This document shows, one piece after another, positions 11,087 through 39,447 of a stretch of DNA of 39,864 bases. How positions within the stretch are numbered: position 1 is the first letter of the stretch; the number at the start of each line of letters is the position of its first letter. The notes under the pieces are model-generated. The model saw nothing but the letters and a program-made list of their open reading frames with translations, had not been told where the DNA came from and made no database searches. Source of the stretch: a virus; IMG/VR virus record IMGVR_UViG_3300033144_002936, positions 13,202 through 53,065 of that record; one strand, given 5' to 3'. Position numbers and translations under genes: made by a program.

Positions 11087-13264
11087 TTAGGCAGCTAACT
11101 TTATATAATCTTCTTGTGGGTTATAACCCCTTAAAGCACCCCAATGAGTGCCTAGCTCGAAGTCGACCTTCATTACCACATCTTTCATTTCAAAATTAAA
11201 CCATTCCTTAGTTTCAGGATTTTCACATATCTGTTTTAGCTTCGGGATCGCGTACTGTATATCAGCTGGGTCGATATAAAAAATGAGTGAATCGTGTACA
11301 GTACCTACTTGAACCAAGCTAAGGGGTAAATTCCCCAGTTTGATATGTTCCCTAATGAGTATTGAACTAAATAAGGCGTAATCTGATGCCGCTCCTTGAA
11401 TTGGTGCATTAACAGCTTGTCGTAATGCCTCCGCTCTCTCTCCCCAGTTCGGTGAATCCACGTTAGGAAGTCGTCGTTTACGTCCAAATAAATTAAAGAC
11501 CCATCCATCGCGGTTAGCAATCTTGGCTTGTCTTGCAATATGTCGTGCAATTTTCGGGAATTGATTATTAAAGTTGTCAAGGAACTTCTGTGCTTCACCA
11601 ACAGAGACAGTATGTTCATCACTAGATAAAGATTCGGCAAGTTTTCTGGCAGTTTGTCCATAGACGATACCAAAATTAATTGTCTTGGCTTGTTTTCTCC
11701 TAGCTTTCCACTTAATGAACTCAGTGTGGGATTCATTTTTATATATTTTTAAAATCTCATCGTAATCTTCTCCCCATTTAAGGCAAGCAGAAGCAAGGTG
11801 TACATCCCTACCAATCCTAAACCATTCTATCATTGTTTCTTCACCAGCCGAGGCGGCAAGTACCCGAAGTTCCGCTTGAGAATAGTCGAGTTGAAAAAAG
11901 AGTTTCCCTGTGGGGGCAATGAACATACGCTTGATATCACTGGCCGTTGTGTCCCTCGGTATGTTTTGCAAATTGGGATTGCGGCTTGAAAGTCTTCCCG
12001 TAACTGTTCCATGTAGGAGGAATGACCCATGTATTTTATCATTTGAATTTAGTCTTTCCCACATACCAACTACATATGTGGAGTTAAGTTTTGTTAATCC
12101 CCTTAGCTCGAGAAGATTCTTTATAAAACCCGTCTTATCTTTAGGCTGCAATTCTAGTAAGGCATCCTCCCCCGTTGATGGTGTCTCAGATTCTTGTTTT
12201 CTTTTCTTATCAAGAGTATATCGTTTTACTTTAAGCTTTAAACCGAATTCACTTCTATAAAGTAAATCCACCATTTGAGGTGGGCTATTAAAATTAACCG
12301 GATCCAATTTTTCTCGATCCTTTTTAGCAGGGAATATTCCGGCAGAAAAATTCGATATTTTCTTCTCCCTATTAACTATTAACCTTTCATTCCCAGATTC
12401 CTTTTTCAAAGCTTTTATCTCCAGCTCGACCTCTTCGATCATTCGTTTTTTGATTTCCTTGATCTTACCTCTCTCATATTTTACCACCCTTGGAATGGAC
12501 CTTAATTTTTCTTCACATTCTGCAATTTTTATTTCATAGTCATCCAATAAATCAGAAAGGTAATCCCTGTCTACTGTCATACCTTCCCATTGAGCTTCAG
12601 CTAATACCCGTGAGGCCATCATTAACATATTTCTAAACAGCGGGTAAAAATTATGCTCAATTAATCTTGGCTCCAAGTAAATATATAATCGAAAAGTTAG
12701 ATCAGAGTCAAAGGCACAATACTTAGAAAGATCTGGTAAAGGAACGTTACTCCAGAACGCAGTAAGTTGGGCCGATGTTGCTTTAGGTCCAGGCTTACCC
12801 GGTAAATCATAACCATCAAAATCGGGCAACCATCTACCTACTAATGATTTTAAATCATGTGGTCTATTTTCATCGAGTAAATACTTAGCAAGCATAGTAT
12901 CAAATACTCTACCCAACATAGTTATACCATACTTGGTCCACCAATTCATCTCATACTTTATGTTCTGGCCTATCTTTACAATATCTGGATTCTCTATTAC
13001 CTCTCGACCAAAATACTGTAACATCCTAAGCCATTCCCCATTAGCTTTGGATGGAGAATCCTTATGGGCTAAAGGTATAACCCATGCCCCCCCTGGTTGG
13101 AAAGAAACCCCTAATAAAGTAGGGTAACTCCCAGGGAACATGGCATTATTCCCACTCGATTCAAAGTCAGATGAAGCATAACCTGTTTGCTTACAATAAG
13201 CCACCAAGTCATGCAGATCTGACCAAGTTTCTACTAGTTTATATTTATAATCTAACTGCTTCAA
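11087..13264 (-). CDS. Family A DNA polymerase with 3'-5' exonuclease domain
   Basis: 725 aa. The exonuclease domain spans residues 25-200, with motif I Asp33/Glu35 (SDFESS), motif II NIKYE (Glu105 where Klenow has Asp424) and motif III YCAFD (Tyr182, Asp186). The polymerase domain has motif A Asp460 (QLDYSQAELR), motif B RRKQAKTINFGIVYGQ (Arg523, Lys527, Phe531, Tyr535) and motif C VHDS (His657, Asp658, with Ser659 replacing the usual Glu). A charged helical insertion occupies about residues 242-320, between the exonuclease and the palm. There is no 5' nuclease domain; the FEN gene supplies that activity. It is the replicative polymerase candidate. It overlaps the TS-family gene by 4 bases. 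Confidence 0.95.
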   Translation of the reverse strand: MKQLDYKYKLVETWSDLHDLVAYCKQTGYASSDFESSGNNAMFPGSYPTLLGVSFQPGGAWVIPLAHKDSPSKANGEWLRMLQYFGREVIENPDIVKIGQNIKYEMNWWTKYGITMLGRVFDTMLAKYLLDENRPHDLKSLVGRWLPDFDGYDLPGKPGPKATSAQLTAFWSNVPLPDLSKYCAFDSDLTFRLYIYLEPRLIEHNFYPLFRNMLMMASRVLAEAQWEGMTVDRDYLSDLLDDYEIKIAECEEKLRSIPRVVKYERGKIKEIKKRMIEEVELEIKALKKESGNERLIVNREKKISNFSAGIFPAKKDREKLDPVNFNSPPQMVDLLYRSEFGLKLKVKRYTLDKKRKQESETPSTGEDALLELQPKDKTGFIKNLLELRGLTKLNSTYVVGMWERLNSNDKIHGSFLLHGTVTGRLSSRNPNLQNIPRDTTASDIKRMFIAPTGKLFFQLDYSQAELRVLAASAGEETMIEWFRIGRDVHLASACLKWGEDYDEILKIYKNESHTEFIKWKARRKQAKTINFGIVYGQTARKLAESLSSDEHTVSVGEAQKFLDNFNNQFPKIARHIARQAKIANRDGWVFNLFGRKRRLPNVDSPNWGERAEALRQAVNAPIQGAASDYALFSSILIREHIKLGNLPLSLVQVGTVHDSLIFYIDPADIQYAIPKLKQICENPETKEWFNFEMKDVVMKVDFELGTHWGALRGYNPQEDYIKLAA

Positions 13265-35052: not shown

Positions 35053-35861
35053 GATACATGTTTTATTTGGTCAAAAGTTGTGTTTATCTCATCTATCCTG
35101 GCCAATGTAACCGTCTGATAAGCCTGTACCGGTAGCATATGAGTACGTTCTATAGATCCATCACTCCCACGACGACCTTTATTAAACTGAGTCATACGAT
35201 AAGGAGCTGCAATCATCTGAAAGTATATACCCTCGAAAAGTACATTAGATACCCCCCACTTTAACATCACCCTATGAGGATTACCAGTGTACCCATCCGC
35301 CTTTGTCAAAGCTTCTACCCTTCTACAGTTCTTAATAACCTCTCGGCTATCCCATGAAGTAGAGTACCAATCAATTTCAAACTCCAATTTATCCTCAGAT
35401 CCAGTATAATGATAAAATGCCGAATTCCTACCAAGAGGTTTTATTGCAGCAAAGACAGATTCTGAGTTCCAATTTAATTCTCGTGGAACAGAAACCAATT
35501 TAATTACTTCATACCCTAGATTAGTTCTCTGTGAATCCATATCGATAATTGATACGTAGTCCGAAAGGCTATTATCACCAGAGGGAGTAAAAGAATTCAC
35601 CCCAACGTTAGGGGCGATATCAGCTGGTGATAAAACGTCAGGAGTAAACCGAGTAGCTCTCCAAGTATCTATACCAGGTTGGTCAGGTACATTAGGAGCT
35701 CTACCAACAGAATCTAATAATGGTAATCTACCAGCAACAAAAAAAAAAAAAAAGACAAGAGCTCGTCTAGCATCCAAACCGTATTGAATACCTTTAGTAG
35801 CATCCTTAGATAAATTAAGACGATGGTAATTGGACCAGTTAGGCCCCTTTAATACAGCCAT
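35049..35861 (-). CDS. Baseplate/tube-region protein with Phe tract, 270 aa
   Basis: Unknown protein encoded between tape measure and LysM, where tube-initiator or hub-cap proteins (T4 gp48/gp54-like) are often found. Residues 1-35 precede a stretch of five Phe (ALVFFFFFVAGRLPLL) coded by 15 consecutive T. The remainder is beta-rich, with ELNWNSESVFAAIKPLGRNS and VEALTKADGYTGNPHRVMLK WGV, then a C-terminal MLPVQAYQTVTLARIDEINT. If the tract length varied by one, the product would stop within about 12 codons. A sequencing or assembly error in the tract is possible. Confidence 0.65.
   Translation of the reverse strand: MAVLKGPNWSNYHRLNLSKDATKGIQYGLDARRALVFFFFFVAGRLPLLDSVGRAPNVPDQPGIDTWRATRFTPDVLSPADIAPNVGVNSFTPSGDNSLSDYVSIIDMDSQRTNLGYEVIKLVSVPRELNWNSESVFAAIKPLGRNSAFYHYTGSEDKLEFEIDWYSTSWDSREVIKNCRRVEALTKADGYTGNPHRVMLKWGVSNVLFEGIYFQMIAAPYRMTQFNKGRRGSDGSIERTHMLPVQAYQTVTLARIDEINTTFDQIKHVS
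35739..35753 (-). repeat. Homopolymer of 15 T in a coding gene
   Basis: Minus strand: GTC, fifteen T, GTT, encoding Val-Phe5-Val in frame. One more T gives Cys-Cys-Trp-stop, one fewer gives about eight residues before a stop. Such tracts promote polymerase slippage. The exact length in the real genome needs checking. Confidence 0.75.
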
Positions 35862-35863
35862 GA

Positions 35864-37942
35864 TTATAATATTCCTAAGTTACGTTCTTGTAAATCACTA
35901 TGCTTTTTTATTGTGTTCTGCATATGTTCAGTAAATACAGTATCTCCATCCAGTATTACATTCACTACTAGTGGCTGACCTTCATTTGCACCCATTAGTC
36001 TTTTAATTTCTTGTGCTAACACACTAGCAACCGCTGTATCAGACTTACCTATACCAGTGATACCAGTGATGGCTTTATCCGGAGCAGTGAATCCCATAAA
36101 CCTTATAGCATGTTGCATTATAGCCGTGTTAGCTCCAGAAACCGCTTGTTTCGCTTTACTTTGAATGGTTTTTGTGTTTGCTTCTGTAGCAGCTTTGTTA
36201 CCTTTGATAGCCCTGATAGCCACACCTATTAGTCCCGGTAATACGAATGCTAAAGCTATACCTACTGGACCTCCAAATAAACCAATCAATCTACCTAATG
36301 CCATAGCCCCAACTTTACCTCCTGCAGCTCTAGCACTAAGGTTCATCATACCCCTAGCACCGATTGCACCTAATCCAAACATTCCACGAGCAGCTCTAGC
36401 ACCCTTACTCGCAGAACCGAATGATTGGTACCCTTTAGGACCTTTAACAAAATACCCACCTTTACCCCTATTAAGATTTGGGTTATAGCCATAGTTACCT
36501 CGCCTACGTCCACGCCCTGCACCCATCATAAAGGTTGACCCTGCCGTGGCATTATACCTCATAGCTGCTACTGACATTCTATTCCATGCAGCTGTAGTGG
36601 TAGCCCCCATGGTTGCAGCCGATGAAGCTGTTGCTAAATGCATTAGTTGTAACGTTTTTACTATAGCACCATAGGCAAACCCAACGGTTTTCAAGGCTAT
36701 AAATCCAGCAATACCTATAGCAAAAAACTCACTGAAGAATGGGATTTTAAGTAAGAATGAAAGAGCTTTGGTTATACCCTTTAATGCCTTAACTAAGGTT
36801 ATAACTACGGGCTCTACTGCAGCAGTAAATGCAATCCACATAGATTTCCACTCAGAACCCAATTTCAATAGTTCACCATGTAAGGTGGCCATCATATCTT
36901 TCATGATCCTACCCGAATGCCCAGCAGATTTAGTAGCGATGTCTCCAGTAAACCTTTGGAACTCTTGAAGGTTTCTTAAGAAAAGAGATCCAGCCCTTTT
37001 ACCACGAACCCCAAATATATTTTGAAGGATAGCTTGTTTCTCAACATTCATACCCTCACCAAAATTCTGGTCTATAGCTCTGCCAAACTTAGTCATGATC
37101 TCAGTCATGGTAAGAAGATTTCCAGCCTGATCAGTGACATCTTGAACACCCAAGCCTAATTCAGCCAGAGCCTTTTGACTAGGACCAGAAGCAAATGATG
37201 AGAATGCCCTTGCCATGTACCTCATTGAATTCTCCATAGCAACACCAGCCATAGAACCCTGCATACCAGCATTACCTAATGCCATAACCATAGCAATAGA
37301 TTCATCAAGTGATATGTTCAAGTCCATTGCAGTAGCACCTGAATATTTTAAGGCATCTCCTAAATCAAATAGGTTTGTATTAGCTCGAGTAACTGCATAA
37401 GCTAAACGGTCAGCAACATTCGTGGTATATTTAAAATCTATCCCGAATTGTTTCATGACATTCGTCATGATATCAGCTGAGCCTCCTTTCCCCCCTAACT
37501 GAGACATAGTAGCACCAGCCAAGTTAACCGAACCATTTATATTTTGTAATACTTGGTCAACCTCCATACCAGCCATGGCCATAAACCTCATACCCTCTGC
37601 TATATCCTTAGGATAGAACATCGTTTGACCGGCTAACCTTTCTGCAGTATCTGTTAATTTTTTCTGTTCGTTAGCAGTGGCAGAGGTAATAGATTTTACA
37701 AACTCCATCTCATAACTATACTCAGCAGCCTTTTTGATTTGGCGACTCATACCTCTTAACGCCATTGCGCCACCAAAAGCCATCCCAGCATTGAGATTTC
37801 TTTGACGGCGTAATTCGTCTTGTTGCCTCCGGATCTGGTTCTGAAGATCCCTGGATGCATTCTTAATACGGGCTGCAGGGCCTGTGAATTGATCCCTGAG
37901 GAACATTGTTATCCCTATCCCTAAGGAACTACCTCCTACCAT
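35864..37942 (-). CDS. Tail tape measure protein
   Basis: 692 aa. The N-terminal region has a coiled coil (RIKNASRDLQNQIRRQQDEL). The central TP901-1-type tape-measure core follows (SYEMEFVKSITSATANEQKK, then LAGQTMFYPKDIAEGMRFMA and ALKYSGATAMDLNISLDES). Two hydrophobic segments (FFSEFFAIGIAGFIALKTV, and RLIGLFGGPVGIALAFVLPG) may contact the membrane during DNA delivery. By the usual rule of about 0.15 nm per residue the tail would be near 100 nm. The ATG comes 5 bases after the stop of the frameshifted chaperone frame; no Shine-Dalgarno sequence. Confidence 0.9.
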   Translation of the reverse strand: MVGGSSLGIGITMFLRDQFTGPAARIKNASRDLQNQIRRQQDELRRQRNLNAGMAFGGAMALRGMSRQIKKAAEYSYEMEFVKSITSATANEQKKLTDTAERLAGQTMFYPKDIAEGMRFMAMAGMEVDQVLQNINGSVNLAGATMSQLGGKGGSADIMTNVMKQFGIDFKYTTNVADRLAYAVTRANTNLFDLGDALKYSGATAMDLNISLDESIAMVMALGNAGMQGSMAGVAMENSMRYMARAFSSFASGPSQKALAELGLGVQDVTDQAGNLLTMTEIMTKFGRAIDQNFGEGMNVEKQAILQNIFGVRGKRAGSLFLRNLQEFQRFTGDIATKSAGHSGRIMKDMMATLHGELLKLGSEWKSMWIAFTAAVEPVVITLVKALKGITKALSFLLKIPFFSEFFAIGIAGFIALKTVGFAYGAIVKTLQLMHLATASSAATMGATTTAAWNRMSVAAMRYNATAGSTFMMGAGRGRRRGNYGYNPNLNRGKGGYFVKGPKGYQSFGSASKGARAARGMFGLGAIGARGMMNLSARAAGGKVGAMALGRLIGLFGGPVGIALAFVLPGLIGVAIRAIKGNKAATEANTKTIQSKAKQAVSGANTAIMQHAIRFMGFTAPDKAITGITGIGKSDTAVASVLAQEIKRLMGANEGQPLVVNVILDGDTVFTEHMQNTIKKHSDLQERNLGIL

Positions 37943-37947
37943 ATCGG

Positions 37948-38112
37948 TTATTTTTTCTTGGATTGTGCTTCGACTTCCTCGTCGTATTCATCACATAGAT
38001 CGAGGAATTTTTTTCGTCTTCGTGTAGTAAGCTTAACGAATTCTAAAAAGGCAAGGTTAATATTATACTGAGAAACACGGAAATAATCCCTTTCTATATC
38101 CCTCGTGGAAAT
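37948..38112 (-). CDS. Frameshift-encoded C-terminal part of the tail assembly chaperone
   Basis: A 54-codon frame with no start codon of its own, entered only by a -1 shift from the chaperone gene. It begins ISTRDIERDYFRVSQYNINL, continues with a basic helix (KLTTRRRKKFLDLCDEYDEE) and ends SKKK. Its length, helical character, and position just before the tape measure fit the T-type extension (lambda gpGT, P2 gpE+E') that binds the tape measure during tail assembly. The full fusion would be 310 aa. Confidence 0.72.
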   Translation of the reverse strand: MSTRDIERDYFRVSQYNINLAFLEFVKLTTRRRKKFLDLCDEYDEEVEAQSKKK

Positions 38113-38879
38113 AAAAAATCCGATGAGGCTAGAATGGGGTATTCAATTTTCTCGTTTTGTTTAACGGGGTGTGGTATGATAGTAACGATTTCTACTATGG
38201 GATCATTCTTAAATACCATCTCCCTGATTTCCATCATTTCCTTAGCAACAATATTCTTAAAGGAATTTACATCCTGCCAATCAGCCCCGATCTTTTGTTT
38301 AAGTCCCCTAGCTTTTAACTCTGTATTCTTAGTAAGTTCAACCTCAGGTAATGTCATTAAATACCTTTCACCAACCCCATCCATGAAAGTAAATTTGAAT
38401 TCCTTCTTAGTAGTTATTTTAAATTCTAATTCTTTTTTACCACCGTGAAGGTGTGGGGGTATTCTATAAGGTGAGTAAAGTTGGTCTCCTTTCTTAGGGA
38501 AATCATCCTTACTATAATCCCAAATATAAGAAGTAAGGTCCTCTTCATATGAAGCTATCCTCCCATCTGGCCATTCGTAATCGAATTTCATAACAGCCCC
38601 CATGGAAAATATCCTACTCGCAATAACTATGAAATATTTATCCCCGAGTTTCATTTGTTCTACATCCTCATATGTAGCCGACTTACCACCTTTAAATTTA
38701 ACGATGATACCTTGAACAAATTTATTAATACCAGAGCCAAGAAAGGCACCCGAAGGATCTGAAAGAACATCATCATCCTCCCCAGTTTGTAACCGAATGA
38801 CAACTTCGTAACCAGAAGGGGTTGTAAGTATTGCTACCTCCCCGTGTAATTTTTCAAGTTCTTCAATACCGTTATTCAT
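38094..38879 (-). CDS. Tail assembly chaperone, short form (261 aa)
   Basis: It starts MNNGIEELEKLHGEVAILTT and has the small-chaperone features VVIRLQTGEDDDVLSDPSG, then DVEQMKLGDKYFIVIASRIF, in the style of phage tail assembly chaperones and the related T4_baseplate/gp26 family. It is encoded between tail tube and tape measure, the classic place for lambda gpG-like proteins. Its last codons carry the T TTT TTA heptamer; normal termination gives LFPRGI and stop, a -1 shift gives the longer form. A gp26-like baseplate role is the main alternative. Motif copy 7 lies 13 bases upstream. Confidence 0.7.
   Translation of the reverse strand: MNNGIEELEKLHGEVAILTTPSGYEVVIRLQTGEDDDVLSDPSGAFLGSGINKFVQGIIVKFKGGKSATYEDVEQMKLGDKYFIVIASRIFSMGAVMKFDYEWPDGRIASYEEDLTSYIWDYSKDDFPKKGDQLYSPYRIPPHLHGGKKELEFKITTKKEFKFTFMDGVGERYLMTLPEVELTKNTELKARGLKQKIGADWQDVNSFKNIVAKEMMEIREMVFKNDPIVEIVTIIPHPVKQNEKIEYPILASSDFLFPRGI
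38112..38118 (-). promoter_or_regulatory. Programmed -1 ribosomal frameshift site
   Basis: Minus strand codons GAT TTT TTA TTT contain T TTT TTA in the correct X XXY YYZ register, the same heptamer used by HIV-1. A stop comes six codons later in frame 0, while the -1 frame is open for 54 codons. A possible bulged stem downstream pairs CACG (38107-38104) with a later CGTG. Efficiency cannot be judged from sequence. Confidence 0.7.
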
Positions 38880-38985: not shown

Positions 38986-39447
38986 TTACACTTTCGTATA
39001 TTTATCTAAAGAAAATTCAATATTCTCAATTGTGTTCTCTGAACTCTGACGATCAAGCTCATGACCTGGTAATGAAGAAGGCCAGCATCCTGTAGCAATC
39101 CATGTGTTAAGGATAGTCACCCCATCCTCTCCAAATTCTACAACTGTAATAACCTTCTTGTAAATTTGAGGAGGAGCTCCTCCCCCGAGCAATGAACTTT
39201 GACAGGTATCAAACCAAGACCACAAATAGGAGTCAGGTTGGTCAGAGACCATGAGTTTCTCACAAACCATTTTACCATATGTTACACGACCAGCAGTTTT
39301 GATATCATGGTTAGTGTCACCATGTAATGCTTCTTCAATCTCTGCATCAGGTAATGTAACCTTTTGAAATAAGAATGGGTTAACTGGGTCTGGACTGATC
39401 TGTACAGAAAAGTTAAACCTTTTCCTGGGATTTGCTACGTTAGCCAT
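38986..39447 (-). CDS. Tail tube protein, T4 gp19-like
   Basis: 153 aa; T4 gp19 is 163. It shows a gp19-type beta pattern: KRFNFSVQISPDPVNPFLFQ KVTLPDAEIEEALHGD, the KTAGRVTYGKMVCEKLMVSD stretch that fits the strand before the loop, SYLWSWFDTCQ, and a C-terminal IENIEFSLDKYTKV. The protein polymerises to form the inner tube of the contractile tail. It follows the sheath gene by 23 bases and ends before a strong terminator. Confidence 0.85.
   Translation of the reverse strand: MANVANPRKRFNFSVQISPDPVNPFLFQKVTLPDAEIEEALHGDTNHDIKTAGRVTYGKMVCEKLMVSDQPDSYLWSWFDTCQSSLLGGGAPPQIYKKVITVVEFGEDGVTILNTWIATGCWPSSLPGHELDRQSSENTIENIEFSLDKYTKV

Follow-up and report, generated by a model that had tools for sequence, protein, structure and literature searches.

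A conserved -1 frame at the end of a T4-type tail assembly chaperone gene points to ribosomal frameshifting in a group of contractile-tail phages

The stretch of viral DNA analysed here (IMG/VR record IMGVR_UViG_3300033144_002936, positions 13,202 to 53,065; 39,864 nucleotides, referred to as the window) carries tail genes in the order tail tube, chaperone ORF and tape measure, the tube and the tape measure being assigned by Pfam and PHROGs comparisons (Table 1). The product of the 261-aa ORF ends in ...SSDFLFPRGI*, and a T TTT TTA heptamer (38118-38112, minus strand) sits in the X XXY YYZ register of this ORF, five codons before the zero-frame TAG (38096-38094). On the same strand, the -1 frame has no stop between 38142 and 37951 and closes with a TAA (37950-37948) 54 codons past the slip site; five bases lie between this TAA and the tape measure ATG at 37942, and the predicted fusion, TAC-NC, is 310 aa long. 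This layout is established, and agrees with a first-pass annotation that had reported T TTT TTA in register at the close of the 261-aa ORF, with coordinates that are correct to the base, and a hidden 54-codon -1 frame without a start codon 5 nt before the tape measure, the position of which was verified. We also note that a run of about 14 T at 35738-35752 (minus strand) lies within a 270-aa ORF (35861-35049), where it encodes FFFFF, and is either a possible transcriptional slippage site or an assembly artefact; relatives align with the C-terminal half only of this ORF.

Table 1. Features of the chaperone locus and its neighbours in the window.
Feature	Coordinates	Strand	Description	Basis or remark
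TAC-N, short tail assembly chaperone	38094..38879	-	Zero-frame ORF, 261 aa	ORF, relatives, predicted fold and PF12322 links of the clade; T4 gp26/gp51-type, a label assigned by clade
Slippery heptamer	38112..38118	-	T TTT TTA	Zero-frame codons GAT TTT TTA
Zero-frame stop	38094..38096	-	TAG	22 nt from the first T of the heptamer
TAC-C, -1 frame extension	37948..38112	-	54 codons + TAA, ISTRDIERDYFRVSQYNINLAFLEFVKLTTRRRKKFLDLCDEYDEEVEAQSKKK	Purifying selection
Candidate stimulatory hairpin	38070..38104	-	13 bp, one mismatch, 7-nt loop	7 nt past the heptamer
Tape measure protein	35864..37942	-	692 aa	PhageMin_Tail PF10145 (E 6.7e-29) and PHROG tape measure families
Tail tube protein, T4 gp19-like	38986..39447	-	153 aa, upstream neighbour	PF06841 (E 1.2e-17); PHROG tail tube

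The heptamer is present 29 times in the window, which does not differ significantly from shuffled sequence (23.9 +/- 4.9), and its predicted genes contain T TTT TTN in frame at eight sites, that of the chaperone being the only one near a gene end. From base composition, a -1 frame open for at least 41 codons has a chance of about 5% per locus. The signal stands above chance because the register, the -1 frame and its peptide are kept in all 37 clusters of related loci, and the observation of a slip site joined to a hidden second frame is confirmed as real.

A scan of viral contigs with the window protein alone found no relatives. Relatives were reached through a tblastn search with the same protein, which recovered three human stool phage records encoding proteins 35-37% identical to it, each with an identical split and a similar hidden frame. 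Alignments of these records reached 54 further viral loci, some contigs being recovered twice. Removal of duplicates, of a locus whose frame was broken upstream and of another truncated before its stop left 44 distinct loci, which form 37 clusters at 70% identity and are as little as 24% identical in pairwise comparison. A human stool phage, KX501134, has a GenBank annotation in which an opposite-strand hypothetical protein is placed over the chaperone gene (L005:200-430), and the actual chaperone and its -1 frame are missing. A scan of genome contigs gave a single match, to the rabbit-gut MAG contig L060 (CANQPD010000018.1), which is near-identical to locus L003; the MAG was binned as Dysosmobacter, which is a possible host hint or possibly reflects a co-binned phage contig, and is too little to name a host.

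The codon register of the T-run is identical in 37/37 clusters, and the heptamer is TTTTTTC in 31, TTTTTTT in three, TTTTTTA in two (the window's included) and TTTTTAC in one. In 32 of the 37, a distance of 22 nt separates the zero-frame stop from the first T. Beyond this stop the -1 frame remains open for 42-85 codons in every cluster and the +1 frame for 35 codons at most, and in most loci the tape measure ATG follows the -1 stop by a few tens of nucleotides or less. The extension is homologous across the clade, with the pattern E.(D/E)(Y/F)F.(V/L).Q...I...EF..LP..RRK.F.EL...Y, and is under purifying selection past the zero-frame stop (pN 0.27, pS 0.64, pN/pS ~0.43, from 22 partly dependent pairs). 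Conservation of the register and of both frames is established by these comparisons, as is selection on the extension. The conservation check suggested with the first-pass annotation was carried out and leaves its interpretation supported: the heptamer and second frame are kept in every readable relative except one lineage (L036, at 2127-2140, and L040/L041) that has GAT TTT TAC at the slip site, one T fewer, and has retained the conserved -1 frame. Tandem -1 re-pairing would be poor at this site, and single P-site slippage may operate there instead.

A less direct route was needed to identify the zero-frame protein. Neither the window protein nor its extension matches a family in Pfam or PHROGs, and PF12322, which includes both gp26 and gp51 of T4, gives no match to the window protein at E<=1. 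Because it falls below the Pfam cut-off, the window protein is considered part of a homologous clade and not a member of PF12322 as drawn. The cut-off of 24.5 bits is passed by the relatives L044 (33.1), L046 (29.6) and L058 (27.8), with the L046 match spanning positions 2-218 of the 219 in the profile, collinear with gp26. A sister family, reached via L044, aligns over its full length with the clade (E 2e-17, in one pairwise comparison), and its members match PF12322 with E values as low as 4e-25. The AlphaFold model of the 261-aa protein has a pLDDT of 94.7 and a pTM of 0.91, and its N-terminal domain matches two PDB entries, 3fgx (Z 6.1), which PMC9603447 lists among tail assembly chaperones, and the HK97 chaperone 2ob9 (Z 5.8, residues 3-93); the next unrelated row is at 3.8, and Z values of 5.8-6.1 are modest by the guidance of the tool. 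Matches in a viral structure library are to phage proteins named as baseplate hub assembly chaperone, gp26 and gp51-like, and searching PDB sequences with the family profile yielded chance hits only. Given the fold matches, the PF12322 homology, the gp19-like tube gene upstream and the tape measure gene downstream, we identify the zero-frame protein as a tail assembly chaperone, on the grounds of position, predicted fold and homology via its relatives. This identity had originally been assumed from position, and the matches of the model to HK97 and other chaperone structures and to T4 gp26/gp51-like viral proteins now lend it support.

Folding of the 45 nt past the heptamer yields a hairpin of 12-14 bp in the window and its nearest relatives, starting exactly 7 nt after the heptamer. 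Among ten sequences of this subclade 79% of cells are paired, compared with no more than 62% once the 3' arm has been slid; the covariation score over 26 sequences is equalled by one of 500 shuffles, and the subclade hairpin is more stable than in synonymous-codon shuffles (p ~0.0009 versus control positions), with the window hairpin taken alone being marginal by such shuffles (z -1.5, p 0.09). For the clade as a whole, stem stability is not significant against dinucleotide shuffles (p 0.07), and the hairpin is lacking in many members. RNAalifold found no consensus pair, a search of Rfam gave no match, and upstream Shine-Dalgarno-like 4-mers, seen in 13 of 30 loci, are not distinctive. We conclude that the structure is likely a stimulatory hairpin in the subclade of the window and not a defining part of the system.

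The interpretation that we hold with high confidence, judging from the sequence and its conservation, is that the chaperone gene makes both TAC-N and TAC-NC by -1 ribosomal frameshifting on U UUU UUA. The majority of ribosomes would terminate at the zero-frame TAG to give TAC-N, whereas a minority, on reading Phe-Leu at U UUU UUA, would undergo a tandem slip of tRNA-Phe and tRNA-Leu back by one base; in the relatives, which mostly have UUU UUC, two tRNA-Phe would slip instead. The downstream hairpin may aid the slip in the subclade of the window. Slipped ribosomes would then translate the additional 54 codons to give TAC-NC. Slippage, its efficiency and the ratio of short to long product are what we infer from this arrangement. 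By analogy with lambda gpG/gpGT, the roles of which are summarised in PMC5009743, TAC-N would form a coat on the tape measure protein, and TAC-NC, through its short and basic C-terminal domain, would bring the T4 gp19-like tube subunit to it.

The -1 frame could also be joined by transcriptional slippage, with the polymerase adding a U on the T-run, and the homopolymer at the junction, which extends to eight T in three clusters, is of the kind that this would use; most clusters, however, have exactly six T and then C or A, and a six-T run is short for efficient polymerase slippage. Moreover, polymerase slippage needs neither an invariant T_TTT_TTN register nor a subclade hairpin at ribosomal spacing, and we consider it unlikely. 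Less probable still is that a small independent gene occupies the second frame and is translated from its own start by translational coupling, without any fusion. A possible GUG start has been described on the P2 equivalent, E' (PMC3931495), and in many relatives of the window an ATG, GTG or TTG is found somewhere within the -1 frame, but no such codon is present throughout this frame in 13 of the 44 loci (the window and 12 others), and elsewhere these codons are at scattered, non-conserved positions, often deep in the peptide. Conservation of the peptide starts instead at the slip site, with the motif FFLS.GD, and in several loci a -1 frame stop lies directly upstream of this motif.

Two further explanations each have a negligible probability. 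Poly-T runs are error-prone and the window comes from one metagenomic virus record, such that an assembly or sequencing indel might have broken one continuous ORF, but 44 distinct loci, drawn from many assemblies, are split at the same codon, as are the GenBank records MT121964, MT121960, MT837498 and KX501134; the artefact is refuted by the relatives that share the split. Some gut phages are known to recode TAG, and recoding of the zero-frame TAG would give readthrough with no frameshift, but the frame conserved past the stop is -1 and not frame 0, several relatives have TAA or TGA at the stop position, and TAG terminates five of the 39 predicted genes in the window. Ribosomal frameshifting is thus by far the most probable of these explanations.

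A more varied picture emerges when the sister family is included. Three phages (Flavobacterium phage immuto, Streptococcus phage GXN1 and one of 484 kb) belong to this set together with 79 readable viral contigs, in 37 clusters (loci L070:2480-3229, L071:2501-3208, L072:2501-3464 and L073-L152). Its extension lies in the +1 frame, which is open in 82/82 loci, and a -1 frame of at least 40 codons is present in only five. The junction reads TTT TTT TGG CCT in most and TTT CTT TGG in a subset, an example of the +1 site being TTTTTTTGGCC; -2 re-pairing is not possible on the TTT C variant, which is consistent with +1 slippage from UUU to UUC. A weak common motif is shared by the extensions of the two families (E 5.6e-5, 66% probability). 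Part of the +1 frame is annotated in the Flavobacterium phage record as a separate hypothetical protein (L072:3354-3464). The evidence leans, with some reservation, towards a switch in direction within one homologous T4-type chaperone family, with -1 slippage on U UUU UUN in the window clade, +1 slippage at UUU with U or C as the next base in the large sister clade, and two genes in T4. Both shifts would pivot on Phe codons at the same protein position, such that the ratio of short to long product would be conserved and the decoding route interchangeable.

These findings bring a broad and essentially unannotated group of contractile-tail phages, several of them from human stool, into the set of conserved chaperone frameshifters, and show a way to annotate a second frame that has been missed. 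The clade and its sister connect the frameshift system to the two-gene solution of T4 (gp26 and gp51), and offer a natural series for comparing a -1 shift, a +1 shift and gene duplication inside one homologous family.

Frameshifted chaperones are already well known in long-tailed phages, and the window adds one more case. The T4-like gp26/gp51 proteins of PF12322 are its closest point of reference, as a homologous clade with a T4-type tail tube in common. In T4 itself, gp26 (208 aa) and gp51 (249 aa) are made from two genes without a frameshift; genes 26 and 51 (L061:3806-5226) are paralogues, both belonging to PF12322 and phrog_150, and gp51 is about 45 residues longer than gp26, which is the short and long chaperone pattern obtained from two genes. 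Direct similarity between the clade profile and gp51 of Straboviridae is not significant. The extension and the C-terminal part of gp51 that gp26 lacks have a similar alignment layout, and we do not claim homology between them because the profile comparison with Straboviridae gp51 is not significant. HK97 gp13 (2ob9) and 3fgx have the N-terminal chaperone fold in common with the window protein over 86-92 residues (Z 5.8 and 6.1), whereas its residues ~94-261 are beyond their extent.

The lambda heptamer is of the G/A type. Lambda is a siphophage and its heptamer differs from that of the window, and the likeness to gpG/gpGT is one of arrangement, with the same two-product logic and gene position (PMC5009743), as had been suggested when the locus was first annotated. 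P2 gpE/E+E' resembles the window in having a contractile tail, a -1 shift on six T (T6G) late in the chaperone gene, and a second frame that likewise adjoins the tape measure gene, and P2 relatives use T7G and T7C (PMC3931495); the P2 heptamer ends in G, whereas those of the window clade end in C or A, and P2 is compared by mechanism alone. The description of the window heptamer as HIV-type is true of its letters, but its final A is a minority form (2/37 clusters) in a clade with the consensus T TTT TTC, and closer phage precedents are found in P2 T6G (PMC3931495) and the poly-T of T4-like chaperones (PMC12846349). Poly-T frameshift sites are mentioned for T4-like TAC-N genes (PMC12846349), and some T4-like phages are noted as having separate short and long genes instead, as attributed to Vladimirov et al. 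2022 (Virology 566:9) (PMC10885494). In Pseudomonas phage Adele and the Vandenendeviridae/Andersonviridae, as here, a -1 frame with a poly-T motif is conserved across a clade, and the downstream frame has been misannotated or overlooked (PMC12846349); the Adele clade has the motif GTTTTT, whereas the window clade has at least six T in register, with five in one lineage.
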